A stretch of DNA of 35,774 nt from Nodosilinea foveolarum (GTDB lineage Bacteria; Cyanobacteriota; Cyanobacteriia; Phormidesmidales; Phormidesmidaceae): positions 1 through 35,774 of the forward strand of contig QBMC01000025.1 in NCBI GenBank assembly GCA_003242035.1, written 5' to 3'. Positions 6,370-30,666 of this stretch are shown here, one piece after another. Below the pieces are notes generated by a model. The model was not told the origin of the DNA, made no database searches, and worked only from the letters and a program-made list of their open reading frames with translations. The position numbers and the translations under genes are program-made. Numbering within the stretch: position 1 is the stretch's first letter; each line of letters starts with the position of its first letter.

Positions 6370-8193
6370 TTAATCTAAAATACTCAGGGCTTTTTGAATA
6401 CCTGTAGCTTTTGGGAAGCAACAGGTATTCCATTGATATTTATAGTGTTCGATTAAAGGTGAAACATCTATTTCAAACTCTTTCGTGTACGTATCAATCC
6501 TTCCGTCTACTACAGCTTTACATTCCAAGATCGCAGGAAGCTTCCTGTTTTGAGCGAAGAACCCAGCCAATTGAGTAGGTTCCTTGACCTTCCCTTTTCC
6601 TTTATAAGTAATCACAATCATCATGTTTTCCTTGGGATCTACTTTAAAAGACGCACCTAAAATTCCACCTTCTTTCTTATTTATTTTCTCTCTATTTTCT
6701 AAAATTAACCAGTTTTTTGTATTTTTAGTGATACGAATTTCAATATCTTTGATAAAGATATTCTGACTGCTAGCATTAAAAACAATGACATTAGTTTTAA
6801 TGAAACATTCATCAAAGCCATACCCATTACCAATACGAAAATTTATAGAACTCTCTTCCGGAGAAATTAAATTAGTCAGAGTAGTCTTTTCTTCCTTATT
6901 AGAGATATGACCTGCCTGATTACCGTGAACAGTCTCTGCAAAGCCTCCTGAAAATTGTGCGCCTCTGAAGTCATAGCTACTTCCTTGATTTAAGCTTAGA
7001 GCTTGAATTAGTTCTTGAATTAGTTCTACGCCTGTATTTTGTTCTTTGTTCATCTCCTCAGCGTTGGGACGTTTTGAAAGTATTACTTCCAAAAGATCGT
7101 CTAACTCTTCAAGTCCCAGTCCTTCTGGGCTTTCCAGCCAAACTAACAGAGCTTTTGTTCGACCTTCTTGAGGCAGAGAGTAACTTGATATGACTCCGCT
7201 GGGAGGATCAAGTGCAAAAACAACCTCCTCAAACTGAGACAAAGGTAGAGAGTTTAGCTTTTGAAGAATAGCAAGTCTTTCCCTAGAAGAAAATCTTCTT
7301 TGGGCCGCAGAACGCTGGTTATCGTTGTTTAGAACGGTCTTCTCACCTGTAGTAGACGAACTATCACCAGGAAAGTCTGAAACAGGAGGAATTGATGAAT
7401 TAGAAACAAGAAAACCTGGTCTGAACTTAGGCTTAGCTCGCTCCTGTAAGGCTGAGGTTAGTAGATTTCTAGCCTCAGCTTGCGGCTTATCTACGAGGTC
7501 TATGTAGATGAGAGTTGATAGCATTCCCTCTAAAATACAGGGTGAAACTTTGATAGGTAGAAGTTTGCGACTGGAACCAGTAGGGTCTTGCACAAAGGCT
7601 GCTGCCCACTCTGGCTGTGTATACAACGCCTTAGTGTAGTTATCCGATAGCACCATAACTGTACACTTAGTCTCTGTAGTGGCCTTCTGCATATCGAGGA
7701 TAAAGTTGCCCCCCGGTCTGAAGTCCCAAGCCTGAATAACTACGCTGTAGCCTATCTCTTCTAGAGTCCAGGCGATCCATTCAGCCCACTCAGAATCAGC
7801 ACTGTTATAACTAACAAAGAAATCTTTGAGTTCTTTATTGTCACGACTAGAAGCTGGATGTTCTGACTTTGATAGTAATCGTTGGCCTATCTGTTCGCAT
7901 TTCTCTATTAGAGATTGCGGAGCATCTTGCATATCATCAGCCTTAAATATATCGATAAGGTCAGTGGTAAGCTTACCGACGATATGGTTAGGCTCTGATG
8001 ACCAGAAACGACGTAGGCGCTTGGCCTTTGAGTTACTATCATCACTTCGGTACTGACTACTATCGATGTCCCGCTCAACGCTATCAACTATAAAGTCTCT
8101 GAAAGTTCTGTCAGAGAAGCTTAGAACGTAGCCGCCCTCCATCTTAAAGAGCTTTTCTAAATTACGTTTCTCTATAAAGCTTAAGTCAGCCAT
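6370..8193 (-). CDS. AbiJ-NTD / TIR / effector-associated-domain protein
   Basis: This is a 607-residue multidomain conflict protein. Residues 1-88 match the AbiJ N-terminal domain pattern (GGYVLSFSDRTFRDF, then SKAKRLRRFW and HIVGKLTTDLIDIF). Residues 121-250 form a TIR domain (KDFFVSYNSADSEW, GGNFILDMQKA, VMVLSDNYTKA) with the probable NADase glutamate E195 in TQPEWAAA. Residues 303-372 are an effector-associated module of the cyanobacterial kind (LAILQKLNSLPLSQFEEVV...GLGLEELDDLLEVIL). A short module with YDFRGAQFSGG at 407 recurs in the next gene. Residues 440-607 are beta-rich, without known motifs. Bacterial TIR domains commonly consume NAD+ after phage sensing, causing growth arrest. 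The gene follows the pentapeptide gene by 88 bases and is probably co-transcribed. The 3' third (6370-6900) is visibly AT-richer, suggesting a swapped C-terminal domain. No APAZ domain is present. Confidence 0.85.
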   Translation of the reverse strand: MADLSFIEKRNLEKLFKMEGGYVLSFSDRTFRDFIVDSVERDIDSSQYRSDDSNSKAKRLRRFWSSEPNHIVGKLTTDLIDIFKADDMQDAPQSLIEKCEQIGQRLLSKSEHPASSRDNKELKDFFVSYNSADSEWAEWIAWTLEEIGYSVVIQAWDFRPGGNFILDMQKATTETKCTVMVLSDNYTKALYTQPEWAAAFVQDPTGSSRKLLPIKVSPCILEGMLSTLIYIDLVDKPQAEARNLLTSALQERAKPKFRPGFLVSNSSIPPVSDFPGDSSSTTGEKTVLNNDNQRSAAQRRFSSRERLAILQKLNSLPLSQFEEVVFALDPPSGVISSYSLPQEGRTKALLVWLESPEGLGLEELDDLLEVILSKRPNAEEMNKEQNTGVELIQELIQALSLNQGSSYDFRGAQFSGGFAETVHGNQAGHISNKEEKTTLTNLISPEESSINFRIGNGYGFDECFIKTNVIVFNASSQNIFIKDIEIRITKNTKNWLILENREKINKKEGGILGASFKVDPKENMMIVITYKGKGKVKEPTQLAGFFAQNRKLPAILECKAVVDGRIDTYTKEFEIDVSPLIEHYKYQWNTCCFPKATGIQKALSILD

Positions 8194-8281
8194 CTACGGT
8201 AGTATTTGTATAAAATAAAACAGAGGAACACAGAGCTATCTGTTCCTAGAGTTTGAGTCGTTCAAGATATCTGAAGTAAGT

Positions 8282-9880
8282 TTACTTGTCAGGAAGGTGG
8301 GGTTGCACAAACTCAATAGGTAAATCTAGGACTTCGGTCAACTCAACTACGTTGCTAGCAAAATCCTTCATGTCACTAGAGAATGTGGCAGCACCTCCTG
8401 CGATCACACCTGCTGCTGAAGCCGCGGCAACCAGTCGTTTCAGACGCCGTCCTATCTTATTAGAATCAGGCGAATCTTTCTTAATATCCATCTCTAGATC
8501 ATCAATGGTGTCAAGAACATTATCTCTATACTCGTCGGGGAACGTTTGAGCCTGTTCACGCAAGGTAGACAGTAACTGAGTAATGTCCTCAAGCTTTGCC
8601 CCGTAGTTGTTGATGGTTCCACCAACCTGATCGCCTTGAACAATCTCAGCTATACCACCTGCAAACTGGGCTCCTCTCATGTCGTATTTTGGGCCTTGAT
8701 TCTCTGCCATAGTTTTTATTATCTCCACTAATGATATTTTTTCTTGCTTCTCTACTTCAATCGTCCGTCTTGCACCCTCAATTTGAATGCCTTGTAGTTT
8801 TAGTCTTTCTTCATATTGAGTTTCGAGTACGGCCAAGCGTGATGAGTAGGTCTGCTTAAGTTCTGATTCTATAGCAGCGCGATCAGTATCAGATAGAGTC
8901 TCCAATTGGATTACAAAGGCTTCTCCTTTGCGTTCCATAGCTCGGACAGAGATATTATCTGACGGATGATGACTACAAACTTCTCGAAATGACTCGAAAA
9001 ACGCCTGCCAGTCGAGCCCTCTTTCAAAAGTTAAGTCAATCGTCTCTGAAGCACTTTCTAAAATTTGAAACCGCTGACCAAATTCTCCAAGAGCAAAGCA
9101 GCTTTCGCTATTTATTGGCAGTCGTTTTGAGAAAGTACCCTCACCATTAGTGCGAAAAATATAATCACAATTGACCTTTTCTAGATTGGTAGAGCTACCA
9201 ACCTGCCAATCTTCAATACAAGCCCCGGTGAGATTTGCTCCCGTTAGGTTCGCAAATAATAGCCGAGCACGCATTAGGTTTGCACCGCTTAGATCGGCAT
9301 AGGATAAATCAGCAGCTGTGAGATCGGCAGATGTAAAATCAACACCTCTCAGATCAGCTCCTCTTAGATCGGTTGCGATAAGTGGAATCCAAGCGAGTTC
9401 AGAGTCTCTTAGGACAGCACCACGCATGTTGAGACGACTGAAATTGACATCTCTATGAAGAGTCTCTACAAGATTTACACCACTGAGGTTTGCATCCATC
9501 AAATTGACATTTTTAAAGTCAATACCTGTCAACCTGGCACCGCTCAAATCAGCACCTGTAAAATCAGCACTAACCAAAATAGCGCCATCAAGATTTGCAC
9601 AGGTGAGAGTAGCATCGTTGAGACTGGCACCAGGCAGACTCGCATCACACAATCGCGCACTACTCAAGTTAGAGCCAGTGAGATTTGCGTCCCTAAGGTA
9701 TGTACGGCTAAGGTTTGCACTTGTCAGGTTCACGTGGCTGAGGTTAATCCCATGGAGGTTCGCGCTGTCTAGATCAATGCCACTAAGGTCTATTTCTGTA
9801 CTTTCACCAGTTTTGGTTCTCCAAGTATTCCAAGATTTCACTCCCTCCAGAAGCAAAGCATGATGAGCATTGTCTACCAT
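8282..9880 (-). CDS. Pentapeptide-repeat protein with coiled coil and shared RGAQF module
   Basis: The 532-residue protein starts with a short helical segment (LLLEGVKSWNTWR) and then about 38 pentapeptide repeats (residues 30-222, A(D/N)LxG type) that form a right-handed square beta-helix. A small globular part (230-330), a charged coiled coil (about 335-392) and a module with YDMRGAQFAGG at 399 and GTINNYG at 421 follow. The same module occurs in the TIR protein downstream. The C-terminal 100 residues contain a basic helix (GRRLKRLV) running into AAASAAGVIAGGAA (485-498), a small-residue helix that could insert in a membrane, and an amphipathic tail. The gene leads the two-gene unit. Role is inferred: a scaffold or sensor, possibly membrane-damaging, partner of the TIR effector. 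Start ATG 9880 is preceded by GAAGGG. Confidence 0.85.
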   Translation of the reverse strand: MVDNAHHALLLEGVKSWNTWRTKTGESTEIDLSGIDLDSANLHGINLSHVNLTSANLSRTYLRDANLTGSNLSSARLCDASLPGASLNDATLTCANLDGAILVSADFTGADLSGARLTGIDFKNVNLMDANLSGVNLVETLHRDVNFSRLNMRGAVLRDSELAWIPLIATDLRGADLRGVDFTSADLTAADLSYADLSGANLMRARLLFANLTGANLTGACIEDWQVGSSTNLEKVNCDYIFRTNGEGTFSKRLPINSESCFALGEFGQRFQILESASETIDLTFERGLDWQAFFESFREVCSHHPSDNISVRAMERKGEAFVIQLETLSDTDRAAIESELKQTYSSRLAVLETQYEERLKLQGIQIEGARRTIEVEKQEKISLVEIIKTMAENQGPKYDMRGAQFAGGIAEIVQGDQVGGTINNYGAKLEDITQLLSTLREQAQTFPDEYRDNVLDTIDDLEMDIKKDSPDSNKIGRRLKRLVAAASAAGVIAGGAATFSSDMKDFASNVVELTEVLDLPIEFVQPHLPDK

Positions 9881-10131: not shown

Positions 10132-11475
10132 CTACAATTCCATACCCTGATCGCGCTTCTTAGCCTGCTTCTGCTGCCGCTGCTTCGACGGCTCCTGACG
10201 ATTGACCGGCTCCTGCTCTTTCTCAACGGACGGTGCTGTCTTTTTCGCCTCAGCAATTTGGGCTTGGTGACGCGCTAGGTCACGAGGGTCGATGTGTCTC
10301 AGTATCACTTCAGCAACGCCATCACTCTGCATAGCTTGTCCTCCTTCTAGCTGCTGAGGCTGGCGTAGCTTTGCATCAGTCGCAGCCTGCTCTTTACCGC
10401 CCTTCGCTAAGACCTCATCGATCTTTCCAGCAACTTCCGCTGCTGCCGCTGATAGCTCGTTCATCATCGCTGTGATTTTTCCTATTACTGCCGATAGTTC
10501 ACCGACGACTGGCGAGTTTTCTAAAATCATTTCATCCCTACGTCTGACAAGCGCCTCGCCAAAACGACGCACCAATTCTGGCTCAATAGAAGGAACTGCT
10601 GATGGCTTAACCGGCTGACTAATGGGCGCAGGTGACGACTCAATTATCGGCGTGGGTAGCACTTGGTTCAACTCGCTGCCTGACTCATTTGAAAAGATGA
10701 GTTTGGGCGCTTCAGGAATGCCTTGATCTCTTGCCGTTACTGCAAGCAGCTTTTCACGTATTGCTGCCTGCTGGTCAATGTCATAGTTGGCGGCGCTGAT
10801 GCGGCGCGACTCATCACCTACTCGTGTCTGAACGCCTCGCGATTCTATCTCCATTACCTTCGCCCCAAGATGTATCTGCGGCTCGCGTTCGATGCCTTGC
10901 GCTTCCAAGCTGCGGTGATCGATGCGCTCCTCAAATCCAGCTCGCTCTAGCGCTCGGTTCGCGTACTCCTCCCACGCCTGCCGGTGCCGCTCTATCGCCT
11001 GTCGCTTGTTCCACTCCCGTCGCTTTTTGCCAAAGCCGTCTTCGTCAACGTTGCGCATCGTCAGCATGATATGCGCATGAGGGTTATGCGAGTCGAAATC
11101 GTGGTAGCCGATGTCGGCAATCATCCCCTGGCTGACAAATTCCGCCTGCACGTACTCACGGGCTAGCGTTTCCTTTTGGCTATGGCTCAGCTCTGCTGGT
11201 AGCGCGATCATCACCTCCCGCGATAGCTGCGCATCCTTCCGCTTTTCAACCCGCTCGACTGCGTTCCACAACGTCACGCGATCGCTCAACCTTTCCGGCG
11301 CACCGACCGGCAGCAAAATCTCACTCCCATAAATATCGCTCTTCCCGGTGTAGTCATGCACCTTCCCCGTCCGCTCATCCCTCACCTCCTCACCAGAGCG
11401 ATACGCAGCCGCAGCCGTCGCGCTTCTACCAGCGCTCCGTCCGATTACCTGCATTCGCATACTGAAGATTGCCAT
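10132..11475 (-). CDS. MobQ-type relaxase (MobA/MobL family)
   Basis: This is the DNA-nicking enzyme that starts plasmid transfer. The start was set at ATG 11475 because the protein then opens MAIFSMRMQVIGRS, the standard N-terminus of MobA/MobL relaxases; a frame open 19 codons further upstream adds non-conserved residues. Y25 in ATAAAAYRSG is the likely catalytic tyrosine, and H130, H133 and H135 in HNPHAHIML form the metal-binding three-histidine motif. DAQLSREVMIALPAELS is also typical. The C-terminal half (about 290-447) is low-complexity and charged, with no primase motif. The oriT lies immediately upstream, and the accessory genes are divergent from 11829. Length 447 aa is normal for the family without a fused primase. 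Confidence 0.93.
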   Translation of the reverse strand: MAIFSMRMQVIGRSAGRSATAAAAYRSGEEVRDERTGKVHDYTGKSDIYGSEILLPVGAPERLSDRVTLWNAVERVEKRKDAQLSREVMIALPAELSHSQKETLAREYVQAEFVSQGMIADIGYHDFDSHNPHAHIMLTMRNVDEDGFGKKRREWNKRQAIERHRQAWEEYANRALERAGFEERIDHRSLEAQGIEREPQIHLGAKVMEIESRGVQTRVGDESRRISAANYDIDQQAAIREKLLAVTARDQGIPEAPKLIFSNESGSELNQVLPTPIIESSPAPISQPVKPSAVPSIEPELVRRFGEALVRRRDEMILENSPVVGELSAVIGKITAMMNELSAAAAEVAGKIDEVLAKGGKEQAATDAKLRQPQQLEGGQAMQSDGVAEVILRHIDPRDLARHQAQIAEAKKTAPSVEKEQEPVNRQEPSKQRQQKQAKKRDQGMEL

Positions 11476-11505
11476 ATTGCTCAGGGACTCTTCTCCAAGG
11501 GGTCT

Positions 11506-11622
11506 AGGGGCTTCGCCCCTGCGCACTGTCACGCAGTGACGTATAAGTGCGCCCTTCCGTTCTGGGTGAACGAAAGGGCTGGGGGCTGGCTGGGATGACT
11601 TAGGGGTTGTTCACCCAGAACG
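11506..11622. other. oriT region with RSF1010/pSC101-like nic sequence
   Basis: TAAGTGCGCCCT at 11544-11555 matches the nic-region consensus of MobQ plasmids such as RSF1010 and pSC101, where cleavage occurs just before or within the GCGCCC part. Directly upstream are short inverted repeats (GTCAC-GCA-GTGAC at about 11528-11540), as expected for relaxase binding. AGGGGCTTCGCCCCT (11506-11520) forms a further hairpin. A 14-bp inverted repeat, 11558-11571 against 11609-11622 (GTTCTGGGTGAAC type), brackets the other side. Position between the relaxase and the divergent accessory genes supports it. The remainder to 11828 shows no gene. Confidence 0.78.
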
Positions 11623-11828
11623 CGGCTACCGTCAGGTGGCCAGATCGGGATGTTCTAGGCTTAGGGAGAAAGGGCAATCACTCGCTAACCAAATTCAGCA
11701 TATCCAAGACTCAGCAGTCTGGATGTCCGGATGCCTGGACGGTGTGTGCCGTTCCCTGACTTCGGCGCTAACCTGATCTGTGATCTGAGTCATTTCTGTT
11801 TCTGGCTCAGCCCTGATGGAGGTAGGTC

Positions 11829-12251
11829 ATGGCCACAAAACTAGACAGGCTCATTGAAAAGGAAGCTCAGCTTAAAGCTCAAATTCAGCAGGCTAAGGCC
11901 ACTGAACGAACGCTGGAGAAGAAAAGGGATACTCGCCGTAAAGTGCTCATCGGCGCGGCGGTCATGGCTCGTGTTGAGTCCGGACGCTGGCCCCAAGCTG
12001 ACCTATTGAAAATGATGGATGGCTTTTTAACTCGGCCTAATGAACGGGAATTATTCGAGCTAGATGTTGCTGAGACGGCTAGCACTGAGGCTTCGGGTAA
12101 ACCTGCGACTGAGAAAAAGCAGCAGGCAAAGGCGATCACAGATAAGGGTCGCTCTGATAGTGATGGAAAGAAGCGGCCTCAGGCAAGTCGGCAAACGGCA
12201 AGCCAGCTTCCTGAGAGCGACCTCGATATCGAAAAAGAATTCAATCTATAA
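11829..12251 (+). CDS. TraD/MobC-like relaxosome accessory protein
   Basis: This 140-residue charged protein has an N-terminal coiled coil (IEKEAQLKAQIQQAKATER) followed by DTRRKVLIGAAVMARVESG and a short helix ending KMMDGFLTRPNERELFEL. That layout recalls the small TraD/MobC-type proteins of MobQ plasmids, which help the relaxase at oriT. The C-terminal 50 residues are Lys/Gln/Ser-rich and probably disordered. A strong GGAGGT Shine-Dalgarno lies seven bases before the ATG. It heads a plus-strand group with the ATPase at 12266 and the protein at 12969. Family assignment is by pattern recognition only. Confidence 0.7.
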   Translation: MATKLDRLIEKEAQLKAQIQQAKATERTLEKKRDTRRKVLIGAAVMARVESGRWPQADLLKMMDGFLTRPNERELFELDVAETASTEASGKPATEKKQQAKAITDKGRSDSDGKKRPQASRQTASQLPESDLDIEKEFNL

Positions 12252-12265
12252 CACGGTACTTTTTC

Positions 12266-12979
12266 ATGACGGCTATTCATTGGTTCGGCGGCGAGAAGGG
12301 CGGCGTCGGTAAGTCTTTCGTCTGCTGCTCTGCGATTGAGTATATGCAGGCAAACAAGCTCGACTTCATCGTCTTCGATACTGACAGAAGTAATCCTGAT
12401 GTTCTGCGGTTGTATAAACAGGCGGCGGGCTGTCGTCCCGCTATCCTCTCTGAGGCGGAGAAGTATGAGGTCGCTGCTGGCACTATCTACAATGCGGCCC
12501 TCAATGAAAAGAAGCCGGTGTTGGTTAATCTCGGCGCGGCTTCTTTTCGCTCGCTCAAGCTTTGGATTGAGAAGAACTATGTCCTGCGTTCGGCCAAGCT
12601 CAACGGCATCACCTTCTACAACTGGTTCGTCTCGAACGGCGGCTCTGATTCTCTGCGGCAGTTCAAGGAGGCGTTGGATTACTTCGGTGACTCCGTGCAG
12701 CATGTCTTCGTTAGGAACTTCGGTATAACTGATGACTGGAGTGCGCTCGATGAGGATAAGAAGCTGAGGGCAAGGATGAAGAAAGCGGGCGTGATTGAGA
12801 TCGACTTTCCGCGCTTCGTCGGCAATCGAGATCGCAATCGCATCAAAGATCTAGGGCTGACGTTTGCAGCAGCGCAATCGCATCAGGCGTTCGATACCCT
12901 CGCGCAGCAGCGCATCAAGTTCTACCTCGATGATGTCTTTGATGAGTTCAATCGGGCGGGGGTGTTCAATGGCGACTAG
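12266..12979 (+). CDS. ParA/MinD-type ATPase, mobilization-associated (MobD/TraL-like)
   Basis: This 237-residue P-loop ATPase has a deviant Walker A motif (GGEKGGVGKS, near residues 8-17) and an FDTDRSNPD motif following strand 2, as in the ParA/MinD superfamily. It opens MTAIHWFGGEKGGVGKS, very like MobD/TraL proteins encoded next to relaxases. It is distinct from the plasmid's true parA at 22567: it has no neighbouring centromere repeats or RHH partner and lies between two transfer genes. It may position the relaxosome or coupling ATPase at the membrane. It starts 14 bases after the upstream stop and overlaps the next gene by 11 bases, so the three form one operon. Confidence 0.8.
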   Translation: MTAIHWFGGEKGGVGKSFVCCSAIEYMQANKLDFIVFDTDRSNPDVLRLYKQAAGCRPAILSEAEKYEVAAGTIYNAALNEKKPVLVNLGAASFRSLKLWIEKNYVLRSAKLNGITFYNWFVSNGGSDSLRQFKEALDYFGDSVQHVFVRNFGITDDWSALDEDKKLRARMKKAGVIEIDFPRFVGNRDRNRIKDLGLTFAAAQSHQAFDTLAQQRIKFYLDDVFDEFNRAGVFNGD

Positions 12980-13688
12980 GCGTAGAGACCCTGAGCAGAT
13001 CTATCGCGATGTCATGGCGAAGTTTGATGCCCAGACTAGAGATAGGATTCAGGGCGTCATTATTGACTATGGCATCGAGAAGGCTGATCCATTCTTTCTC
13101 ATCTTTTTAGCGATGGGCCATCTGCTAACGCTGGTGCAGACGGCTCCTGAAAACTGGCAGGTACTCTTTGATGAGTTCAAAGGAGATTTAGATGCATGGA
13201 CGACTCAAAATCTCAGAACCCTGGAGGCGATCAATCAGCAGAGTCTGATTTCAGAGCGGTTGATCCGAAGCTTTCAAGCGCTATCGAACTTAACGACCTC
13301 ATCGAACGGCGAAACGCAGAAGCTGCACAAAGAATTGACGAGATTGAATACCGAATTAGCCGCGTTCAAGGGCAGCTTGATTCAGGCGGTGAACCAGAAC
13401 ACGGCCAACAGCCAGACGCTGCTCAATCGCGTTCAAACCAACGAGGAAAAAGTCGCGCTGCTCGAAAGTCAAATGACTTGGACTTTGGCTTGTAGTGCGC
13501 TGACGCTGGCGGCGGTGGTGATCGGCGGGGCGATCTCCTATGGGCGCTTAGCGAAGGAGGTTGAGTTTGCTCAGGTGTTGCTAATGCAGGAGCGCAAGCG
13601 CAGTATCTGGACGTTGGAGAAGGCGAACCGGGCGGAGTGTTTCTATGGAATTAAGCCGCAGAGCGATCCGCAATGTCAGCAGTTTTAG
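12969..13688 (+). CDS. DUF6753-like membrane-anchored plasmid protein
   Basis: Start ATG 12969 overlaps the stop of the preceding ATPase gene; a longer frame reading from 12864 lies inside that gene and was discarded. The 239-residue product opens MATRRRDPEQIYRDVMAKFD and has a conserved-looking helical domain (GIEKADPFFLIFLAMGHLL, then APENWQVLFDEF). A coiled coil (about 90-155), one transmembrane helix (CSALTLAAVVIGGAISYG) and a short cysteine-containing tail follow. This order resembles the DUF6753 proteins common on cyanobacterial plasmids. The function is not established. Location suggests a part of the mobilization apparatus that bridges relaxosome and membrane. Confidence 0.72.
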   Translation: MATRRRDPEQIYRDVMAKFDAQTRDRIQGVIIDYGIEKADPFFLIFLAMGHLLTLVQTAPENWQVLFDEFKGDLDAWTTQNLRTLEAINQQSLISERLIRSFQALSNLTTSSNGETQKLHKELTRLNTELAAFKGSLIQAVNQNTANSQTLLNRVQTNEEKVALLESQMTWTLACSALTLAAVVIGGAISYGRLAKEVEFAQVLLMQERKRSIWTLEKANRAECFYGIKPQSDPQCQQF

Positions 13689-14219
13689 TCAGGGAAAGAC
13701 GCTCGATGCGGGCCATCACCCAGGGAGAATAACGTTTGATGGGTTGGCTACGGCGGTAGGTGCATTCCCCCTGGATGGGCCAAGAGCTTAGCGATGAGTC
13801 GCCCGTCAAGGGGTGCGCTACGCCCATGAAAACTTATTTAGACTCGGGCTGGCAGGGTGGGCGCGATCTTAGTTTTCATGGCCCCTAGACTTGATAGCAG
13901 TAGGTAGACAAAGCGCTAGCGGCCACGAGGGGAATGTTCCGTAATCACTTCGGCCCTAGCCAGTACGCTTTAGCGTACCAGACACCACATCGTATGAGAT
14001 TTGATTTTGTGCGCCTATGCCTTGCATTGAGGTTCGTATCTCCCCTGGAAAGGCGTTCATGGTTCTCTGTGGGTTGTGATGGTTGCGACCGCGTCGTGAT
14101 GCTGTTGTGATGGCGCTACACGATGAACGACGGTAGATTCAGCCCTTTTGTTGTGATGGTTGTGGCGGTTGTGATCAGCGCCTGGAGGGCCGTTTTAGAC
14201 CGCTTTTTTCTCACAACAA
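13689..14219. other. 531-bp non-coding interval with inverted and direct repeats
   Basis: No supportable gene is present. There is an 11-bp inverted repeat CCATGAAAACT (13824-13834) / AGTTTTCATGG (13871-13881) spaced by 36 bases, and GTACGCT-TT-AGCGTAC at 13963-13978, a compact hairpin. The right half carries the GTTGTGAT repeats listed separately. It lies between convergent transfer genes, so it may combine terminators with a binding site or origin. Confidence 0.5.
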
Positions 14220-14226
14220 TCACAAC
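14073..14226. repeat. GTTGTGAT repeat cluster (iteron- or operator-like)
   Basis: Direct copies of GTTGTGATGG lie at 14073, 14104 and 14150, with GTCGTGATGC at 14093 and GTTGTGATCA at 14168. Inverted copies (CACAACAATCACAAC, 14212-14226) sit against the stop codon of the next gene. At least five units in 150 bases is more than chance for an 8-mer. Possible roles are a replication iteron set, a ParR or relaxosome binding site, or an operator; spacing is uneven. Confidence 0.45.
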
Positions 14227-15488
14227 ACGGTGTCGCTCAGCAGGTAGTCGCCATTTTCAGTCTCGGTAATTTTCTCGGCATCCAGCAGTGGCGCGAGCGC
14301 GGCCATCATCGAGCGTTGTGAGGTCAGCCCCTCGCGACGGGCAAAGCTTGCCTGGGTCAGTTGTCGTAAGCTAACGTGTTCGCGGCTACGACTGCTGAAG
14401 TAGCTCAGCACTTCCCGTGACTGCTGGCTCAAACTCGGTTCGCGCTTTGCTTCGGCGGCGCGATCGCTGTCTTCTGGCTCATTGGACTGCCGGGTCACTT
14501 CAAACGGGGCGGCATAGCCCCATTCGCCGTCGAGCATTTGCAGGTAGCCAGTGAGCGCGGCGGAGGGCGTTTCTATTTGCATCGAGCGCTTCAGTGAACT
14601 GTACCAGGACTTCTCAGTGCGCTTAGCGTGGCCAACGGCGCACAGTCTGAAGCTGGCTTTGTTGCCGCTGGTCATCGCTAGGTCTTCTACCGTTGAGGCT
14701 TGAGCCATGATCCAGACGAATTTGCCTTTGCTGGGGCCAACGCTGCAAATCGTAGAGAGCCTGCCCATGAATGCTTTGTAGGCTTTTGGCGTCATCCCCT
14801 TCGATAGGCCGGGGGAGCATTCGTCAACGATTAGCAACTTCGGTCTATCGGCTGAGCTGGGGGCGAGTAGGAACTGCTCGAATAGTCCTGTGACTTTGGC
14901 AGTTACCGCGTCAGGTTCTAGCGTGGTCACGTCAAACCTTGCCCGCTGGCGCACGGGGATGCGCGACCAGTAGTAGGACTCGTTTGGATCGTCTTTCGGG
15001 TCGATTAGCCACAGGTCTATGTTGGCGGGGAGCTGCTGCACCGCGCGGGCGATCGCATACCCTTTTCCGGCTCTCGGTGCGCCTAACATCACCGTGCTCT
15101 TCAGCGTTTGGCTGATCGTGTGGCTCAGGTTATGAACCGGCAGCGATGCGGGCAGCTCGGCGGCTGTGGTTGCCTCGGCTGACTTCATTAGCTGTTTTGG
15201 GGCCAGGGCTTCGTAGATCAGCTGCTGGCGCTGGTTATCGCTGATGTCTCTGAAGTCTTGCAGCACTCGGTCATGGGTGGCCAGATTGCCTGCGGTGGCT
15301 CTCGATACGGCAGTCATCCCACAGCTGGCGAATATCAGCACGGCTTTAGCGATCGCATTACTGCGAATACTCGGGGCCAGGGCAAAGGCAATCAGCAGGA
15401 TGCTCGCGGCCCAGGTGCCTAAGCTGATGACGCGGGCTTGATTGGCTAGCCGTTCACGGTCGGCGACTTCGGTGAGGATGTAGGTCAT
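14220..15488 (-). CDS. Membrane-anchored P-loop ATPase, coupling-protein/FtsK-like
   Basis: The 422-residue protein has two N-terminal transmembrane helices (about 20-40 and 47-66). An ATPase core follows with Walker A GAPRAGKG (136-143), WLIDPKDDPN after strand 2, Walker B KLLIVDE (217-223) and MAQAS in a sensor position. The IDPK(D/G)D stretch is characteristic of FtsK/VirD4-type DNA motors, and the two anchoring helices fit a type IV coupling protein, though it is shorter than typical VirD4/TraG. The C-terminal 80 residues resemble a winged helix. It heads the downstream end of a minus-strand operon with 15491 and 15874. On a mobilizable plasmid it probably couples the relaxosome to a type IV secretion channel, but no channel genes are present here. 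Confidence 0.72.
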   Translation of the reverse strand: MTYILTEVADRERLANQARVISLGTWAASILLIAFALAPSIRSNAIAKAVLIFASCGMTAVSRATAGNLATHDRVLQDFRDISDNQRQQLIYEALAPKQLMKSAEATTAAELPASLPVHNLSHTISQTLKSTVMLGAPRAGKGYAIARAVQQLPANIDLWLIDPKDDPNESYYWSRIPVRQRARFDVTTLEPDAVTAKVTGLFEQFLLAPSSADRPKLLIVDECSPGLSKGMTPKAYKAFMGRLSTICSVGPSKGKFVWIMAQASTVEDLAMTSGNKASFRLCAVGHAKRTEKSWYSSLKRSMQIETPSAALTGYLQMLDGEWGYAAPFEVTRQSNEPEDSDRAAEAKREPSLSQQSREVLSYFSSRSREHVSLRQLTQASFARREGLTSQRSMMAALAPLLDAEKITETENGDYLLSDTVL

Positions 15489-15490
15489 GG

Positions 15491-15868
15491 CTACAGAACA
15501 GCGATCCCACCGCCGATAAACAGCAGAAAAAACCGCACCACTCCATCAAACCGCAAGCTCTTGCGGCGCTGGCAGGTATCGGCCAACATCACGCAGAAGA
15601 TAGACAGCGGTACGCCTGCGCCTAACAGAATTGACCACAATGGCAGCGGCGAAAGGATGGCCAGCTTCACCAGGGAAAAGAAACCCGATGAATAGATTAG
15701 CCACTGCGAACAATCTACCCACAGCCCACGGCTAGACAGGGCGATGAAGTTAGCCATGCGGCTACTGGTTTCGCCCTTGATATTGACGCGGTTAGTGTCG
15801 AGCGTGACCTGCTCGACGTTTCGACCTAGAGCGTTCTGGTTCTCGATCAGGACTTTAGGGGCGGACAT
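15491..15868 (-). CDS. Small multi-pass membrane protein
   Basis: The 125-residue product has a 45-residue polar N-terminus and three hydrophobic stretches: WLIYSSGFFSLVKLAILS, SILLGAGVPLSIFCVML and FFLLFIGGGIAVL. A basic loop (CQRRKSLRFDGVVR) sits between the last two. The family is not recognised. It precedes the coupling-like ATPase by only two bases, and its ATG is followed upstream by the 155-residue gene stop at 15874. Translational coupling and a shared role in transfer are likely. It may be a membrane partner that anchors the ATPase. Confidence 0.62.
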   Translation of the reverse strand: MSAPKVLIENQNALGRNVEQVTLDTNRVNIKGETSSRMANFIALSSRGLWVDCSQWLIYSSGFFSLVKLAILSPLPLWSILLGAGVPLSIFCVMLADTCQRRKSLRFDGVVRFFLLFIGGGIAVL

Positions 15869-15873
15869 GGGGA

Positions 15874-16302
15874 TTACTCCACACGGATGAATGAACGGGT
15901 TTGGTTAGTGCGCTCTACTGAGTTGCTGTAGGACGTGAGGCCAATGGAAAACATGCTGGCGGCGACTAGGAAGCACAGGGCGATCACTGCTGATAGCGTC
16001 AGCGATAGCGCGGTCGGCAGCTTTGGTAGGTTGATAGTCTGCGGGGGGATGCCTCGGCTTTGGGCGGTTTGGTAGTGACTCGGAGGGCGATCTCTGTGCT
16101 GGGTGATGGGCTGATGAGCAATGAGCTGCACCTGATAGCGTTTGCCGTCGATGGTGACGGTGCCTTGCTGAGGGAGCTGGCTGAGCTGGTGCTGCGGAAT
16201 TTCGGTGAGCGCGTACTGTGGTTTGGGCATGGGCGAAAGGGGGCGCAGCTGCACCCCGATAAGTTTGGGCTCAGGGGCTATGCTTTCCAGCGCTGTGACC
16301 AT
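15874..16302 (-). CDS. Single-pass membrane protein of the transfer operon
   Basis: The protein has a proline- and glutamine-rich cytoplasmic part with a short beta segment (QQGTVTIDGKRYQVQLIAHQ). One transmembrane helix near the C-terminus (ALSLTLSAVIALCFLVAASMF) and a short tail of polar residues follow. The frame is open up to ATG 16341 (155 aa), but an internal ATG at 16302 gives 142 aa and a shorter overlap with the gene before it; neither has a good Shine-Dalgarno, so the start is uncertain. The family is not recognised. It belongs to the same minus-strand operon as 15491 and 14220. Confidence 0.55.
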   Translation of the reverse strand: MVTALESIAPEPKLIGVQLRPLSPMPKPQYALTEIPQHQLSQLPQQGTVTIDGKRYQVQLIAHQPITQHRDRPPSHYQTAQSRGIPPQTINLPKLPTALSLTLSAVIALCFLVAASMFSIGLTSYSNSVERTNQTRSFIRVE

Positions 16303-16466
16303 TCCAACGTGGCGCGTTCTCGCTGTTCCTTCGGCAGGCATTTGACGCCAGCGCGGATCGCCTGCTGGTCTGAAGCGGGCAGCTGCGCCATCGTCTGAGA
16401 CAGCTGCTGTTTCTCTACGGGCGTTAGCGGCCCCGTGCCAAAGTTGGTACTGAGTTCTCGTGACAT
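16278..16466 (-). CDS. Small helical protein, unknown function
   Basis: The 62-residue polar protein opens MSRELSTNFGTGPLTPVEK and is predicted helical throughout (QQLSQTMAQLPASDQQAIRAG). It lies upstream of and overlaps the membrane protein gene in another frame, as in tightly packed operons. An AGGAC sequence lies about ten bases upstream. No family was recognised. Position and compact overlap are the main support. Confidence 0.45.
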   Translation of the reverse strand: MSRELSTNFGTGPLTPVEKQQLSQTMAQLPASDQQAIRAGVKCLPKEQRERATLEWSQRWKA

Positions 16467-16546
16467 AATTTCGATAGTCCTGCTTGTTTGTGATGATTCG
16501 GGCGGGATAGAGGCGGGCTAATAGTTGGTAGCTGTAGTCCGCTTTG

Positions 16547-16672
16547 CTATGGCTTCAGCGCTTTCAGCCGGTCTGCGATGACCGCGTGATAACTCTGAGG
16601 CGTTTGCGACTTGATGGCCGTGCCGGTGGCCGCAAGCTGGTCGAGTTGGGCGCGAATGTCGGCGGCATTCAT
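16547..16672 (-). CDS. Small 41-residue ORF with strong Shine-Dalgarno
   Basis: ATG 16672 is preceded by AAAGGAGA ten bases upstream, the best ribosome binding site of this part of the plasmid. The product begins MNAADIRAQLDQLAATGTA and ends YHAVIADRLKALKP, giving two short amphipathic helices. It is the first gene of the minus-strand group leading into the membrane and ATPase genes, with about 80 bases before the next start. No family is recognised. The 233 bases upstream (16673-16905) show nothing else convincing. Confidence 0.5.
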   Translation of the reverse strand: MNAADIRAQLDQLAATGTAIKSQTPQSYHAVIADRLKALKP

Positions 16673-16905
16673 CGGTTAAATGTCTCCTTTACGTGATTGC
16701 AATTGCCGTCTAAAGGTGGGGTTATCGGTGATGTTGGCGGGGTTGAGGTTGTCGATGGGGTTAGCGCATTACCGCATCCATTGCTAGGCAAAGACGCGGC
16801 GACCGTCAGCACTGTGCAGGAATGGGATCTTGCTCCACACGGGGGAGAACTTAAATGCGGAAGTGTTCAGCCCTGGCCCTTCGGTCTTTGTTTCAGAGGT
16901 CAGTG

Positions 16906-17235
16906 TTACCAGTCATCACCGTTGTTTTCGATGCCGCCAATTAGCGCGGGCTTGGCGATGGACGGCGACATTTTTACAGGTTGAGAATGCACAGGTGTCG
17001 CTGTGGCTGGTTGGATAGTGACGACAGCAGTGGACAGCAGTTCGTGACTGGCGAGCAGTCGCCCTAATGCTTGCGATGGGTTGGGATCTAGTTCAGTTAG
17101 GGCGATGAGGATGTGGCGCTGCTGCTGCCAGTCGCTCAGGATGCGGTCTAGCAATTCGGTATTGCCTTCCCCTGCTTGCCGCCAGCTCTCCCACTGTTTG
17201 CTATCGACGCGAACGCGGATCTGTTCTCGGCTCAT
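16906..17235 (-). CDS. ParR-like DNA-binding partner of the actin-type partition protein
   Basis: The 109-residue protein starts eight bases after the ParM stop and is clearly its operon partner. The N-terminus MSREQIRVRVDSKQWESWRQ has the strand-then-helix pattern of a ribbon-helix-helix fold. LLDRILSDWQQQ gives the second helix. The C-terminal 40 residues are proline-rich and probably disordered (KMSPSIAKPALIGG). In type II partition systems, the small gene after parM encodes ParR, which binds the centromere and caps the actin filament. Sequence similarity to known ParR is not visible by eye, so the call rests on position, size and fold pattern. Confidence 0.55.
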   Translation of the reverse strand: MSREQIRVRVDSKQWESWRQAGEGNTELLDRILSDWQQQRHILIALTELDPNPSQALGRLLASHELLSTAVVTIQPATATPVHSQPVKMSPSIAKPALIGGIENNGDDW

Positions 17236-17243
17236 CGCGATTC

Positions 17244-18236
17244 CTACCTCTGCGCTCTGGCCAATAGCTGATCGGCAGCATCTGCCAGGGCGGTCAAGTT
17301 AGCCCACTGCGGATTCTTGATGACCTTGGCGTTTAGCGTCTGCTCGATGCCGGGGAGTTTGGCTCCACCGCCGATGATGTACCGGGCGCTGTCGTCGTCG
17401 ATGGCGGCGAGAACCTCACCCATACAAGCGGCAACGTCAGGGGCAATCTGCTCAATGACTTCAGCACCATGTGCTTGGTCTAGCAAATAGTTGATGATGC
17501 TCTGAGGGCTAGGGGTCTTGAGCCTGGGCGCTAAGCTGTCGCGGTAGACGATGCGCTCGGCTAGGCTGTACACACCGCAAGCATCGAAGGCGCGGCGTTT
17601 GAGAATGCGTCCGGTTTCGCTGACCTGGGTCAACAGGATGGTGCGGTTGCCGATGTCGATGATGGTGGCGTGGCCTTTGACTTTGCTCTGAATGTGTTTG
17701 AACGCTTGGTAGCCTTCGAGCTGCGGGATAGCCGTGTGGATGGTGACGCTGTGCGTGGTAGCGCGTGATTCGATCACCTCAGCATCGGCGGGAATGCCGA
17801 CTGAGTGTTTACCCGTCAGTTGCTCGGCAATCTGCGGGCCATAGGCTTTGACTGATGGGCTGGTGAAAATGACATCGGCGTGGATGGTGTCGGCGCTGAA
17901 GCCGATCATCTGGCGCAGCGCATGGATCAGCAGGGCGCGGGCGTTAGTTACTTTGCCCTCGGCGCTGCTGCCGGTGCGCGAGCAGGGGTGAGCTTGCGCT
18001 GGCCTGCCAACTAGAAAGTTTTTGAAGCCTTGGGCAGTCGCTAGCGTCAGGCAGTCGCTGTTTGACTCGGGCGTGAGGGTGACGTGAGATGGGAATTGAG
18101 CGGTGACCCATTTCTGCGTACCGGGCATCCGGCACATGGCGTTGACGTCACCGTTGCCTAAGTCAATCAGGACGGTCGCTCTAGCCGTTTGAGCGGTCGA
18201 GTTTGTTACCTGTCTTTGTTTGAGAGTAGTTGCCAT
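17244..18236 (-). CDS. parM: ParM-like actin-family plasmid partition ATPase
   Basis: The 330-residue protein has the actin/Hsp70 ATPase signatures in order: phosphate-1 loop VLIDLGNGDVNA near the N-terminus, phosphate-2 loop ATIIDIGNRTILL, and adenosine loop YIIGGGAKLPG near the C-terminus. ParM polymerises with ATP and pushes plasmid copies apart. The start was set at ATG 18236, which has AGGTG eight bases upstream; an ATG at 18269 is in frame but adds 11 non-conserved residues. The ParR-like gene follows by eight bases. This is a second segregation system beside ParA at 22567, which is unusual for a 36-kb plasmid. The actin-like family also includes Alp proteins, so the exact subfamily is open. 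Confidence 0.85.
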   Translation of the reverse strand: MATTLKQRQVTNSTAQTARATVLIDLGNGDVNAMCRMPGTQKWVTAQFPSHVTLTPESNSDCLTLATAQGFKNFLVGRPAQAHPCSRTGSSAEGKVTNARALLIHALRQMIGFSADTIHADVIFTSPSVKAYGPQIAEQLTGKHSVGIPADAEVIESRATTHSVTIHTAIPQLEGYQAFKHIQSKVKGHATIIDIGNRTILLTQVSETGRILKRRAFDACGVYSLAERIVYRDSLAPRLKTPSPQSIINYLLDQAHGAEVIEQIAPDVAACMGEVLAAIDDDSARYIIGGGAKLPGIEQTLNAKVIKNPQWANLTALADAADQLLARAQR

Positions 18237-18385
18237 GCAAGCACCTAGAAACGTTGGGGCGTATGGCATTGCTTACTTCTGACTCAAAAAGCGCGTCATC
18301 TGAGCGCTAAACGCTGTCGAGTCAAAAGCAAGACGTTAACGAGTGTTAAGCGTTTTTGCTCGTTTGCCATGCTCTAAACATAACT

Positions 18386-18466
18386 CAAATATGTATTCAT
18401 TATGTACTCATATTTGGTGAGTAAAACTTATCAAAAATACTGTATTAAATAAGAAAAGTGTATTCA
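18386..18466. promoter_or_regulatory. Candidate operator/origin region upstream of the RHH and rep genes
   Basis: The AT-rich 290-bp gap between divergent parM and the RHH gene has CAAATATG (18386-18393) and CATATTTG (18409-18416) as an inverted repeat. TGTATTCA-like units occur at 18392, 18403 (TGTACTCA), 18441 (TGTATTAA) and 18459. These could be operators for the RHH repressor, or replication iterons. TATATAAA near 18498 may be the -10 region of the plus-strand transcript. Confidence 0.45.
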
Positions 18467-22209: not shown

Positions 22210-22265
22210 CGGTTATTCGATTAAGCGATTAACTGAATAATCAGTTAATCGCTTAACCAATCAGT
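22210..22265. repeat. Array B of 8-bp repeats
   Basis: Units are CGGTTATT, CGATTAAG, CGATTAAC, TGAATAAT, CAGTTAAT, CGCTTAAC and CAATCAGT from 22210. The array covers the last codons of the RHH gene (stop at 22245) and the promoter region of the DUF1016 gene, so it may act as operator for that gene as well as a partition site. Confidence 0.78.
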
Positions 22266-22583
22266 CAGCAATTCTGCAACTAGATCGCTAAAATCTCTAG
22301 AATCCTCTACCAATTTGACTTTGACCTTATTATTTAGGGCGCGGGGCAAATAGCATCCGACTTGCGTGTAGGTAGGGTCTGAGCGCTTTCCAGTCTTGGC
22401 CCGACTCCGGAGCTGCTTAGATAGATCTAAAGACTCACTAGCCACCAGAGCCTCCTTAGATTTCAAGTCAGCCGCGATTTCCAGTACTGAAGGCGCTGCT
22501 CCATCTGGCTGTACTCGCTTCGCTGTCTTCTTTGCGAGTGTGTCAAACATGGTTGACTGCCTAGCTCTAGACTCCTTGGTCAT
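22245..22583 (-). CDS. RHH-type partner of ParA (ParG/omega-like)
   Basis: The 112-residue protein has an unstructured basic N-terminus and a C-terminal YTQVGCYLPRALNNKVKVKL followed by FSDLVAELLTDWL, the strand-helix-helix of ribbon-helix-helix DNA-binding proteins. Its start overlaps the end of parA by 17 bases, as in type Ib partition operons where a small RHH protein binds the centromere and stimulates ParA. The mobile N-terminus would hold the arginine-finger-like part. It is the most likely reader of the 8-bp arrays. Assignment rests on context and fold pattern rather than identity to a known family member. Confidence 0.72.
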   Translation of the reverse strand: MTKESRARQSTMFDTLAKKTAKRVQPDGAAPSVLEIAADLKSKEALVASESLDLSKQLRSRAKTGKRSDPTYTQVGCYLPRALNNKVKVKLVEDSRDFSDLVAELLTDWLSD

Positions 22584-23172
22584 ACTTTAATACCTCCTCA
22601 CCAACTGCTCGATATTCTTTCCAGGCGATACTCGCCATGCGATCGCCTGACCCCTGAACAGGGACACCAGCTAATGCTGCCTTCTCATATGCAGTTAGCT
22701 GACGGATGACCTGATCGAAAACGGGAATGTCCTGACTTTCTAGCATGACCCTAGCTTGCTCAGCGGTAGCCATTTTTCGGCTGTCAACTTTAGTTAGTAG
22801 CACTGAGTAAGCGCTTAATCGCTTAAGCGCTTCAGTAGTGTTTAGGAGTGCCTCTAATCCCAGTGCGTCAGCGGTAGTAGGTAGTATCAAAAGGTCACAG
22901 CCATCTGCCAAGGTTTCTAAGGTTTCATTGTCAGGATGAGCCTCTGTATCGACCACTATATGGTCGGCGGCTCTGCTAGCTTTCACACTGGCCGCAAAGT
23001 CACAGACGGCGAAGGGTAAGTTACCACGCTCAGCCCAGCCCATAGAAGAACGATTTGGATCGCCGTCAACCAGCAGAGTCTTTCCATCTAGACCTGCAAA
23101 AAAGCAGGCTAAGTGAACCGCCGTCGTGGTTTTTCCTACTCCACCTTTGAATCCAGCCACAGTCACGATCAT
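22567..23172 (-). CDS. parA: ParA family partition ATPase
   Basis: The 201-residue protein is a small type Ib ParA. Its deviant Walker A is GFKGGVGKTT (near residues 8-17), LLVDGDPNRSS is the A' motif, and HIVVDTEAHP is Walker B. VLLTKVDSRK matches the later strand. ATP-bound ParA dimers coat the nucleoid and move plasmids through the centromere complex. There is no N-terminal HTH, so autoregulation should fall to the RHH partner. The ATG directly abuts an 8-bp repeat array with no room for a Shine-Dalgarno, so the message may be leaderless. Four array units (22804-22835) lie inside the coding sequence and encode a stretch with ALKRLSAYS. Confidence 0.9.
   Translation of the reverse strand: MIVTVAGFKGGVGKTTTAVHLACFFAGLDGKTLLVDGDPNRSSMGWAERGNLPFAVCDFAASVKASRAADHIVVDTEAHPDNETLETLADGCDLLILPTTADALGLEALLNTTEALKRLSAYSVLLTKVDSRKMATAEQARVMLESQDIPVFDQVIRQLTAYEKAALAGVPVQGSGDRMASIAWKEYRAVGEEVLKYDQGV
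22804..22835. repeat. Array C: four 8-bp repeats inside parA
   Basis: TGAGTAAG, CGCTTAAT, CGCTTAAG and CGCTTCAG follow each other without gap inside the parA coding sequence, on a stretch between conserved strands where length is likely flexible. The units are the same family as the intergenic arrays. Confidence 0.7.
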
Positions 23173-29223: not shown

Positions 29224-30660
29224 TTATGTGTAATATCTGAAGTTTGGCTGTGGCGACTGCCCTTCCGGAATTTCACGAAGTATGTCACCTACCAGTTTAG
29301 AAAACCGTAGGTCTATAGGCGAGGAGCCTGCATAGTCGGCAGAATTGAAATTCATCTTGGTCAGTAGCAGTATCTCTTTCTTAATTTGAGCATCTGAAGC
29401 ATCCCCTACGTGGTCAGCTATCTGAAGGGGTGAGGGAACATGACCATGAGGATATTTGCCCATCTCCGGAATATATCCAGTCGTATACAAGTAAGATATG
29501 TCCCCTGCGGTGAAGCTTGAACCTCTTAGAGGAGGATACTGACCTGCCCGAATCAAGCGCACGTTATTGGAAAAGCGAAGTGAAACTAAGTCATACTGCT
29601 CCACATCAGAAGAACATAGAGCCTGCTCAAACCCTGAACGCTCTTCTGGCTCGAATCGAGAGCTTTTGTGAACCACAACACGACGCGGGAGCTGTCGTCG
29701 TTCGCTACGATAGCGTCTTAGCACCATTTGCAATAGTTCATGAGCGGTGTCTTCGGGTAAGTGAGGAGAGCGACTCTCCTGCTGACTATCCCAACGAAAG
29801 CTAGGCCCTCTTAGAATGAGACCTTCCCCATTGTGGTCGAATGCTTGCACAACGCTGCTTCTTAGTGTACTTGCACTACCAAGAGGACGGAAAAAGCTTA
29901 TACCTATGAAACAAGTCCCTGGGTTTAAACCGACGGGTGCCCACGGTAACCCTTCGACCTTAAAGTACAATCCTGTAAAAAGATTCCAAGCAATCTTAGA
30001 ACGATGGTCGAGCTTTCGACGCGAATTGACTAATCCGATAGTAGTCTCTTGCAAGATCTGCGTCGGCTTGCGAAACTGCATCGCTGATGCTTTAAAGGCA
30101 CGTCGTAAGTCGCGATGAACATCAATTTTATTATCCTTGTAATTAGCAACGCGGCATCCCTTCAGAAGATCATTAGGAGGAACAAAGACGATATAGTCAA
30201 GCGGGTAGTCTCTCTGCGTTAGTAGCTCCAACTTGTCTTCTAAGATCTCTAGAAACCGTTCAAAACGCTCGCGCTGGCTTCTGATTCCTGAAACTTCAAG
30301 GATCTCCCTCCTGGTGATTGATTCACATATATTCTCGTCCATACGTAACTCGCAGCGAAAACCCCGATCTGCACGACATCCTGGAAAGGCTATCTGATCG
30401 TTCTCGCTATCGACACCATCAGCCAAGTCAGAATAGAAATGTCTAGCCGCGTCCATCCCCTCTGCTGAACCAATGAATCCAACATGAACTTCTTGCTTAT
30501 GACGGCTAGTACCCAACGAGCGAGGGCCATATAGCGCGATTCCAATCTTTGGATGGCAGTGCGCTCCGTCTTCCGCAAACAGTAATTTGGGCTCCTCATA
30601 GTATTGAGCAGAAAGTTCAGGGGAGTGTAGCTGAAGCGGACTGATTTTTCCTATTGTCAT
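29224..30660 (-). CDS. Short prokaryotic Argonaute (MID-PIWI, catalytically inactive)
   Basis: The 478-residue size and layout fit a short pAgo: no N, PAZ or linker domains. The MID part has the guide-5'-phosphate pocket pattern of short pAgos (VHRDLRRAFKASAMQ with KPTQILQET, 181-206). The PIWI part contains CFIGISFFR (250-258), FDHNGEGLILRG, RVVVHKSSRF (327-336) and a C-terminal MNFNSADYAGSSP (436-448). Positions usually holding catalytic aspartates carry serine (GIS, HKSS), so it should bind guide and target but not cut. It follows the HNH-APAZ gene by six bases. In related systems target recognition by the pAgo activates the partner. Ends in GRFSKLVG-like helix typical of PIWI. Confidence 0.85.
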   Translation of the reverse strand: MTIGKISPLQLHSPELSAQYYEEPKLLFAEDGAHCHPKIGIALYGPRSLGTSRHKQEVHVGFIGSAEGMDAARHFYSDLADGVDSENDQIAFPGCRADRGFRCELRMDENICESITRREILEVSGIRSQRERFERFLEILEDKLELLTQRDYPLDYIVFVPPNDLLKGCRVANYKDNKIDVHRDLRRAFKASAMQFRKPTQILQETTIGLVNSRRKLDHRSKIAWNLFTGLYFKVEGLPWAPVGLNPGTCFIGISFFRPLGSASTLRSSVVQAFDHNGEGLILRGPSFRWDSQQESRSPHLPEDTAHELLQMVLRRYRSERRQLPRRVVVHKSSRFEPEERSGFEQALCSSDVEQYDLVSLRFSNNVRLIRAGQYPPLRGSSFTAGDISYLYTTGYIPEMGKYPHGHVPSPLQIADHVGDASDAQIKKEILLLTKMNFNSADYAGSSPIDLRFSKLVGDILREIPEGQSPQPNFRYYT

Positions 30661-30666
30661 GTTGGC

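Follow-up and report, generated by a model that had tools for sequence, protein, structure and literature searches.

A circular plasmid contig of Nodosilinea foveolarum (QBMC01000025.1; the whole stretch of 35,774 nucleotides is referred to as the window) carries on its minus strand an operon at 14220–18269, which encodes a P-loop ATPase, two membrane proteins and two tiny proteins and is headed by an actin-like ParM gene. Our tentative preference, held with somewhat less than even confidence, is that the ATPase, as a member of the FtsK/HerA superfamily, translocates DNA in a sequence-directed manner that needs no relaxase, can be likened to the TraB/clt system of Streptomyces and serves plasmid transfer or spread along filaments. 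The window closes into a circle through a 55-bp overlap of its ends and is contig C177 of a 4.75-Mb genome; its nearest named records, when compared by the ATPase, are from Phormidesmis. The sequence-only reading had placed a six-gene operon at 14220–16672. The operon is real, but this interval holds five open reading frames (ORFs) on the minus strand (the ATPase and frames of 125, 155, 62 and 41 aa), and the unit runs on in the same strand through a doubtful 47-aa frame and a 109-aa gene to the actin-like gene that ends at 18269. The gene order is kept in the relative from P. priestleyi ULC027 (locus L004), where a replication gene lies divergently alongside. The ratio of non-synonymous to synonymous change (pN/pS) between the window and L004 is 0.09 for the ATPase, 0.11, 0.10 and 0.12 for the 125-, 155- and 62-aa proteins, 0.12 for the 109-aa gene and 0.07 for the actin-like gene, which indicates that the longer operon genes are under strong purifying selection, as judged from this pairwise comparison.

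The ATPase (422 aa; 14220–15488, minus strand) has two N-terminal hydrophobic segments (residues 20–38 and 43–61, the second weaker; 15306–15431), a Walker A stretch, GAPRAGKG, placed by alignment (residues 136–143; 15060–15083), and a predicted C-terminal winged-helix domain (about residues 355–418; 14235–14426). Common to the relatives is the pattern GxPGxGKG, IDPKxDPKE and LLIxDE, followed by conserved S, G, W and Q, and G141 and K142 are invariant across 23 aligned members. A structure model built on the alignment of 23 family members (mean predicted local distance difference test score (pLDDT) of 69.5) comprises an N-terminal helical hairpin, a RecA-like core (pLDDT mostly 80–90) and a C-terminal winged helix. 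The core can be superimposed on FtsK (6t8b; Z 12.1, root mean square deviation (rmsd) 3.3, 176 aligned residues), HerA (8woc; Z 11.7, rmsd 3.7, 181 aligned) and TcpA (6o1x; Z 11.5, rmsd 3.4, 179 aligned, 14% identity). Rho chains and EssC score level with these three proteins, so the fold comparison assigns the superfamily and not the branch. When modelled alone, the C-terminal 78 residues also form a winged helix (pLDDT 88.6), one best match of which is the Zur-DNA complex 4mtd (Z 9.6, rmsd 2.2, 73 aligned). The ATPase is predicted to be anchored in the membrane and to have the type of fold shared by coupling proteins, FtsK and HerA, in agreement with the sequence-only reading, which had described a P-loop ATPase with two N-terminal helices that is coupling-protein-like in kind. 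That reading had also found no known family for the two membrane proteins and the two tiny helical proteins. For the ATPase and the two membrane proteins, searches of Pfam, NCBIfam and PHROGs gave no matches beyond a few at E 0.16 or worse.

The phylum search for relatives gave 22 rows outside this genome; 12 weak ones (E 7.5e-11 to 8e-4) were left out, several of which look like RecD-type helicases on reading (L046, L052). Matches in BFVD, one of them from a Nodularia phage, were set aside; the top three rows had 12–14% identity and low TM-scores. A second ATPase type (NQRGGKGT ... VVLHGK) is fused to the N-terminal domain of the first type, with the gene order unchanged (L058, L059, L060; Nostocales plasmids), and was present in all three plasmids examined among those that match the N-terminal domain alone.

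The proposed recognition site of the ATPase is an array of GTTGTGA(T) repeats on both strands at 14073–14226, which overlaps the last bases of the ATPase gene and went unmentioned in the sequence-only reading. All five copies of GTTGTGAT in the window fall inside the array, and nowhere else in the window are five copies of one 8-mer packed into 200 bp. Dinucleotide shuffles of the window produce a comparable site in 2 of 100 cases. Across the loci, the stretch from −450 to +250 relative to the stop codon was considered, and an array was scored when 250 bp of it contained five or more copies of a 7-mer. By this measure, 14 of 40 loci have an array where the ATPase gene ends (13 of 39 apart from the window); when the loci are grouped into sequence clusters and each is scored by its best member, a count that favours the array claim, the figure is 8 of 21. 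The same measure is reached in 33 of 1054 other regions and at 10 of 195 other large-ORF ends, and the enrichment over the ORF-end control is significant by Fisher's test (p 1.2e-6 for loci, 4.8e-5 for clusters). The arrays of distant relatives differ in sequence: TGCTACA is found in nine copies in L040, CGCCACA in seven copies in AP018303 and GTTCCCA in L058, and the array of AP018200 consists of eight copies of GGTGTGAA, which are all the copies that this plasmid has. Further arrays lie within the 3′ part of the gene, namely CGAAACG (L009, L082, L083), CTGAACC (L080), CCTTCCG (L028) and CGATACC (L060); these occupy both strands and more than one frame and are thus not simple protein repeats.

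Among the control ends with high scores, two are those of primase-type genes (L028, L025), where the repeats are read as replication iterons. Iteron-like arrays stand at primase or replication genes in L028 (near 16381), L091 (near 8581) and L025 (4406–6013), and in L028 and L091 their sequence is unlike that of the ATPase-linked array on the same element. Neither the single-strand folding of the window's array (z −2.1) nor a motif-conservation test (46/74 versus 74/188 identical columns, p 7e-4), the alignment of which was anchored by the motifs themselves, was used.

Comparison of relatives suggests that the repeat motif tracks the C-terminal domain of the ATPase, as judged from co-occurrence in the sequences. 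L061 and L080 have C-terminal domains that are 79% identical and have the motif CTGAACC in common (three and eight copies, respectively); three of the five CTGAACC copies in the examined 33 kb of L061 fall in the 700-bp test region (chance about 1e-4). The C-terminal domain of L009 is 41% identical to that of L061, and the motif there is CGAAACG. The core of L085 is 60% identical to that of L009, but its C-terminal domain cannot be aligned to that of L009, and L085 carries another motif, neither CTGAACC nor CGAAACG. Within the clade of the window, the motif of the window occurs seven times in the window, six times in L004, four times in L005, twice in L006 and not at all in L025. Compared with the window, L006 and L025 have cores of 73% and 72% identity, whereas their C-terminal domains reach 53% and 38%. 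These two loci separate the domain from the core better than L061 and L080 do, because the cores are equal and the C-terminal domains differ.

The closest likeness is to Streptomyces TraB (also TraA, Tra), with which the modelled ATPase would have in common an N-terminal membrane hairpin, an FtsK/HerA-type core and a C-terminal winged helix. In pWTY27, 16 bp within traA and an adjoining 159 bp with 7-bp repeats make up the clt, and the repeats that TraB recognises through its C-terminal winged helix are 8 bp long (PMC3583192); this placement of short repeats, where the gene itself ends or directly after it, is matched by the array described here. Many Streptomyces spd genes are unlike those on other plasmids (PMC4170104), which resembles the small, mutually unrelated membrane proteins in the present unit. 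TraB is reported to need no relaxase; the counterpart here is the occurrence of the module where none of five relaxase families was matched. Both systems are also found on integrating elements with a primase-type replication gene (PMC3583192, PMC4170104 and PMC3218068). Unlike TraB, however, the module has no sequence match to FtsK_SpoIIIE, resides in a diderm host, is headed by an actin-like gene and has its repeats on both strands.

Two other FtsK-like ATPases offer partial parallels. TcpA of the Clostridium plasmid pCW3 is likewise membrane-anchored and matches the modelled core at the Z-score and identity given above, but it works with a type IV-like system (PMC5365140 and PMC12857230). 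TdtA of Thermus thermophilus is an FtsK-HerA ATPase that serves DNA donation by a route other than classical conjugation (PMC5365140); it differs in its partners, a NurA nuclease and a restriction enzyme, and in that no DNA-binding domain is reported to have been detected in it.

In the mechanism that we propose, the N-terminal hairpin would anchor the ATPase in the membrane and the RecA-like core would form a ring, presumably a hexamer, that moves DNA, with double-stranded DNA as the probable substrate. The C-terminal winged helix would recognise the 7–8 bp repeats where the ATPase gene ends. The two small membrane proteins would be the remaining parts of the complex in the membrane, and a ParM filament may deliver the plasmid to it. 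Such a translocase would work without a relaxase. Its likeliest use would be the pumping of plasmid DNA through the membrane or septum into the neighbouring cell of a filament, in the manner of Streptomyces TraB with its clt and Spd proteins, with active partition at division as a close second.

Several observations weigh against this proposal. The window ATPase has no Pfam match and no relevant NCBIfam match, and by sequence it is not a member of the FtsK/TraB families; FtsK_SpoIIIE is matched by 3 of the 23 members, at E 0.01 at best. No array by the set measure is found in 26 of the 40 loci and 13 of the 21 clusters. The core of L061 is nearer to that of L080 (65%) than to that of L009 (56%), so the L061/L080 pair does not fully separate the C-terminal domain from the core. 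Small membrane proteins from different lineages show no detectable homology in profile comparison (probabilities below 2%), and only the membrane-membrane-ATPase order and the hydrophobic segments are common to the lineages. Relaxase matches, five of them weak, are found in 15 of the 19 module-bearing plasmid records that were examined whole. Several copies sit in integrated elements, where transfer is not the obvious need. Finally, among the 31 loci with at least about 3.5 kb of upstream sequence, arrays occur in 9 of 11 with an actin-like gene and in 4 of 20 without one (p 0.0014), an association that suits a segregation role or a centromere.

We regard a segregation function as a serious possibility, at around one chance in three in our judgement. 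The ParM homologue, a ParR-like adaptor and the membrane FtsK-like ATPase would then position plasmid copies or draw them away from the septum as it closes, the array would be a loading site or centromere, and no intercellular transfer would take place. FtsK itself is a segregation motor. The actin-like gene (17244–18269, minus strand) matches the partition protein PHROG 691 at 2.4e-8, as would be expected of the ParM of a ParMRC system; in 12 loci, including the window, such a gene precedes a member of this ATPase family and has the same orientation (one of the 12 is broken), and those of two relatives match ALP_N. The 109-aa protein (16906–17235, minus strand) stands where a ribbon-helix-helix ParR would be expected and is called ParR-like from this position and from the look of its N-terminal end; it has no family match in Pfam, NCBIfam or PHROGs. 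Like ParMRC and AlpAC, the operon combines an actin-like protein, a small adaptor-like gene and DNA repeats, and a prophage actin/adaptor pair with repeats has a precedent in AlpAC (PMC4446434). The presence of the module in integrated elements, three of which have a phage terminase nearby, also fits segregation. It differs from ParMRC and AlpAC, however, in that a membrane ATPase belongs to the operon and the main repeats lie at the opposite operon end. About 2.7–3 kb separates these repeats from the genes for the 109-aa and actin-like proteins; AlpA, by contrast, has its sites adjoining its own gene. As for parC-type repeats next to parMR, two 11-bp copies are found upstream of parM (18390–18411), where conservation in L004 is poor. 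L061 has no actin-like gene in 33.4 of its 39.1 kb examined, yet it has the motif and the C-terminal domain in common with L080, which carries the gene, and arrays occur in L009, L027, L082 and L085 without an actin gene in the stretches examined. The array is linked both to the C-terminal domain and to the actin gene, so on present sequence comparisons the ATPase and the actin adaptor are both possible readers, of which the ATPase is preferred. A ParA-type gene is already present on the window and in 17 of the 19 module-bearing plasmid records. This, together with the placement of the array at the ATPase gene, is why transfer is ranked above segregation, which stays a close rival through the actin link.

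The sequence-only reading had cast the module as a possible adaptor that links a MobQ relaxosome to a channel of the host. In its general form, a minimal coupling module in which the ATPase hands a relaxosome to a type IV channel encoded by another element, this explanation appears improbable. It gains from the relaxase matches in the plasmid records, which comprise MOBF in 3 of 19, PF03432 (MOBP-type) in 11 of 19 and MOBV in 1 of the 5 tested. Five relaxase families were tested, two of them, PF01076 and PF13814, on 5 of the 19 records only; the count includes the weak PF03432 matches of W10–W14 (1e-11 to 2e-6, short frames). A partner relaxase on the same element, as expected of a coupling protein, is thus found for the window and these 15 records, but not overall. 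The fold is compatible, TcpA scoring Z 11.5, level with FtsK, HerA, EssC and Rho. Five relaxase plasmids of 35–98 kb (W05, W16–W19) lack a canonical coupling protein, and TrwB-type coupling proteins are encoded on two other contigs of this genome, C288 and C253. The window does contain a MobQ relaxase, as that reading had stated, and it is genuine (MobA_MobL, 1.3e-76). However, MobQ was found in none of the 19 module-bearing records, and the other MobQ contig of this genome has no copy of the ATPase, which does not support the adaptor role. The search for the gene set on other plasmids, which the same reading had suggested as a check, finds plasmids without any of the five relaxase families in 4 of 19 records: AP018303, NZ_CP050446 (where the operon is decayed), NZ_AP023442 and AP018200; this group includes circular plasmids 24 and 17 kb in length. 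As far as these families can tell, the outcome that the same reading had named as refuting its idea, the genes on plasmids that lack a relaxase, has thus been observed. The ATPase is likewise present, with none of the five families, in G329 and G396, on one contig in each, and in the genomes G232 and G023 (87% complete). In 10 of the 19 records, all of at least 158 kb, the module is accompanied by a canonical coupling protein of the TrwB type. At the sequence level, TrwB_AAD_bind is matched by 2 of 23 members (E 0.011) and not by the window ATPase, which therefore does not fall into the coupling-protein family. The relaxase of the window, moreover, has a divergent gene trio of its own at 11829–13688. 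The VirB4 family PF03135 gave no match (0/12), being found neither in G000 nor in eight plasmids of 13–98 kb; this family may miss cyanobacterial VirB4, and because G000 has TrwB-type coupling proteins, the result is read as a limit of PF03135 and not as the absence of a channel.

With one family member as query, 57 records were recovered among 72,556 plasmid records, and these belong to nine cyanobacterial genera, which we take to be filamentous; the pattern could be explained by shared ancestry. The observation that 45 of the 57 records are mobilizable or conjugative was not used, as many of them match the N-terminal domain only and three that were examined carry the second ATPase type. A CyRepA1 query, intended as a background for plasmid mobility, was flooded by Klebsiella and other non-cyanobacterial records and was not used as a baseline.

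The copies in integrated and phage contexts raise the question of a phage-derived function, such as positioning of the genome for replication, exclusion of competing elements or packaging, that was carried onto plasmids. In L025, the integrated copy lies beside an integrase and tRNA-Pro, and the opposite side ends with the contig; in L028, it is accompanied by integrase, primase-type, actin-like and M23 genes. A phage terminase large subunit is encoded 13–19 kb from the ATPase in G008:C5, G014:C3 and G323:C9, and a tape-measure protein about 7 kb away in G396, with a weak one (1.7e-5) about 4 kb away in L028. These neighbours favour such an origin, but a tblastn search with two family members gave no match among 50,697 phage records, no relative was confirmed when single proteins were used in three scans of IMG/VR, and the gene tables of the small complete plasmids AP018303 and AP018200 list no phage structural gene. 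We consider a phage-derived function very improbable. In the window itself, no capsid or coat gene was recognised by reading and by scanning part of the proteins. An inovirus or packaging ATPase, an idea raised by the tiny membrane proteins and by an M23 peptidase near the L011 and L028 relatives, was rejected after these searches of phage records and viral contigs had yielded no confirmed relative.

The remaining genes of the operon, all on the minus strand, are small. The 125-aa membrane protein (15491–15868) has two hydrophobic segments and relatives in L004–L007. The 155-aa membrane protein (15874–16341) has one hydrophobic segment near its C end; its counterpart in L004 is 126 aa long, so the true start is probably later. 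The 62-aa protein (16278–16466) gave only sub-threshold matches in Pfam, NCBIfam and PHROGs. The frame of the 41-aa protein (16547–16672) is kept in L004 with 100% amino acid identity, with one synonymous change and no others, which is too few to judge selection. The 47-aa frame (16669–16812) shows three synonymous and two non-synonymous changes relative to L004 and is doubtful.

Elsewhere in the window, the MobQ relaxase lies at 10132–13688 together with the divergent trio, which encodes a 140-aa protein, a ParA-like protein and a DUF6753 coiled-coil membrane protein. The ParA-like family of the trio recurs near the MOBP relaxase of L061 and the MOBF relaxase of L033, and thus the trio, rather than the ATPase, resembles the partner set of a relaxase. 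A separate ParA gene (22567–23172; CbiA 2.2e-17) with a 112-aa partner is located at 22245–23172 on the minus strand and provides the plasmid with a second partition candidate. On the same strand, 29224–31965 holds the gene of a short prokaryotic Argonaute (PADLOC pAgo_I 1.7e-140) and, after it, that of a protein in which an HNH domain (HNH_2 1.3e-4) is combined with a region like the PNTD domains of Argonaute partners; the two are a candidate pAgo defence pair with an HNH effector. At 6370–9880, also on the minus strand, a TIR-domain protein (TIR_2 7e-31) and a protein in which many pentapeptide-like repeats are seen by eye have, again by eye, a similar C-terminal stretch, RGAQF-GG-AE. The pair is perhaps a conflict system.

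In open-licence literature on TraB-like or FtsK-like transfer or on actin-like plasmid genes in cyanobacteria, no description of the module was found. FcmB, an actin-like protein of filamentous cyanobacteria derived from partition actins, is presented as belonging to a different, chromosomal locus (PMC12645912). TraB/clt-type systems have so far been described from actinomycetes. The wider claim, that filamentous cyanobacteria possess relaxase-independent transfer or spreading of this type, in which a membrane ATPase with its own address label, inside its gene or next to it, works with an actin filament and is common to plasmids and integrated elements of a diderm multicellular host, is one that we hold to be rather unlikely, if far from negligible. 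A survey judged 374 of 424 cyanobacterial plasmids immobile by the standard model and mentioned that a conjugation mechanism of an unknown kind had earlier been suggested for cyanobacteria (PMC8600333). If the proposal is true, a translocase that works with a cis site and without a relaxase would be a tangible candidate for such a mechanism, and plasmids typed as non-mobilizable, such as AP018303 and AP018200, would become testable as mobile. The array offers a simple binding test under either transfer or segregation. If the module is a segregation motor instead, it would represent a partition system that joins an actin filament to a membrane DNA pump.

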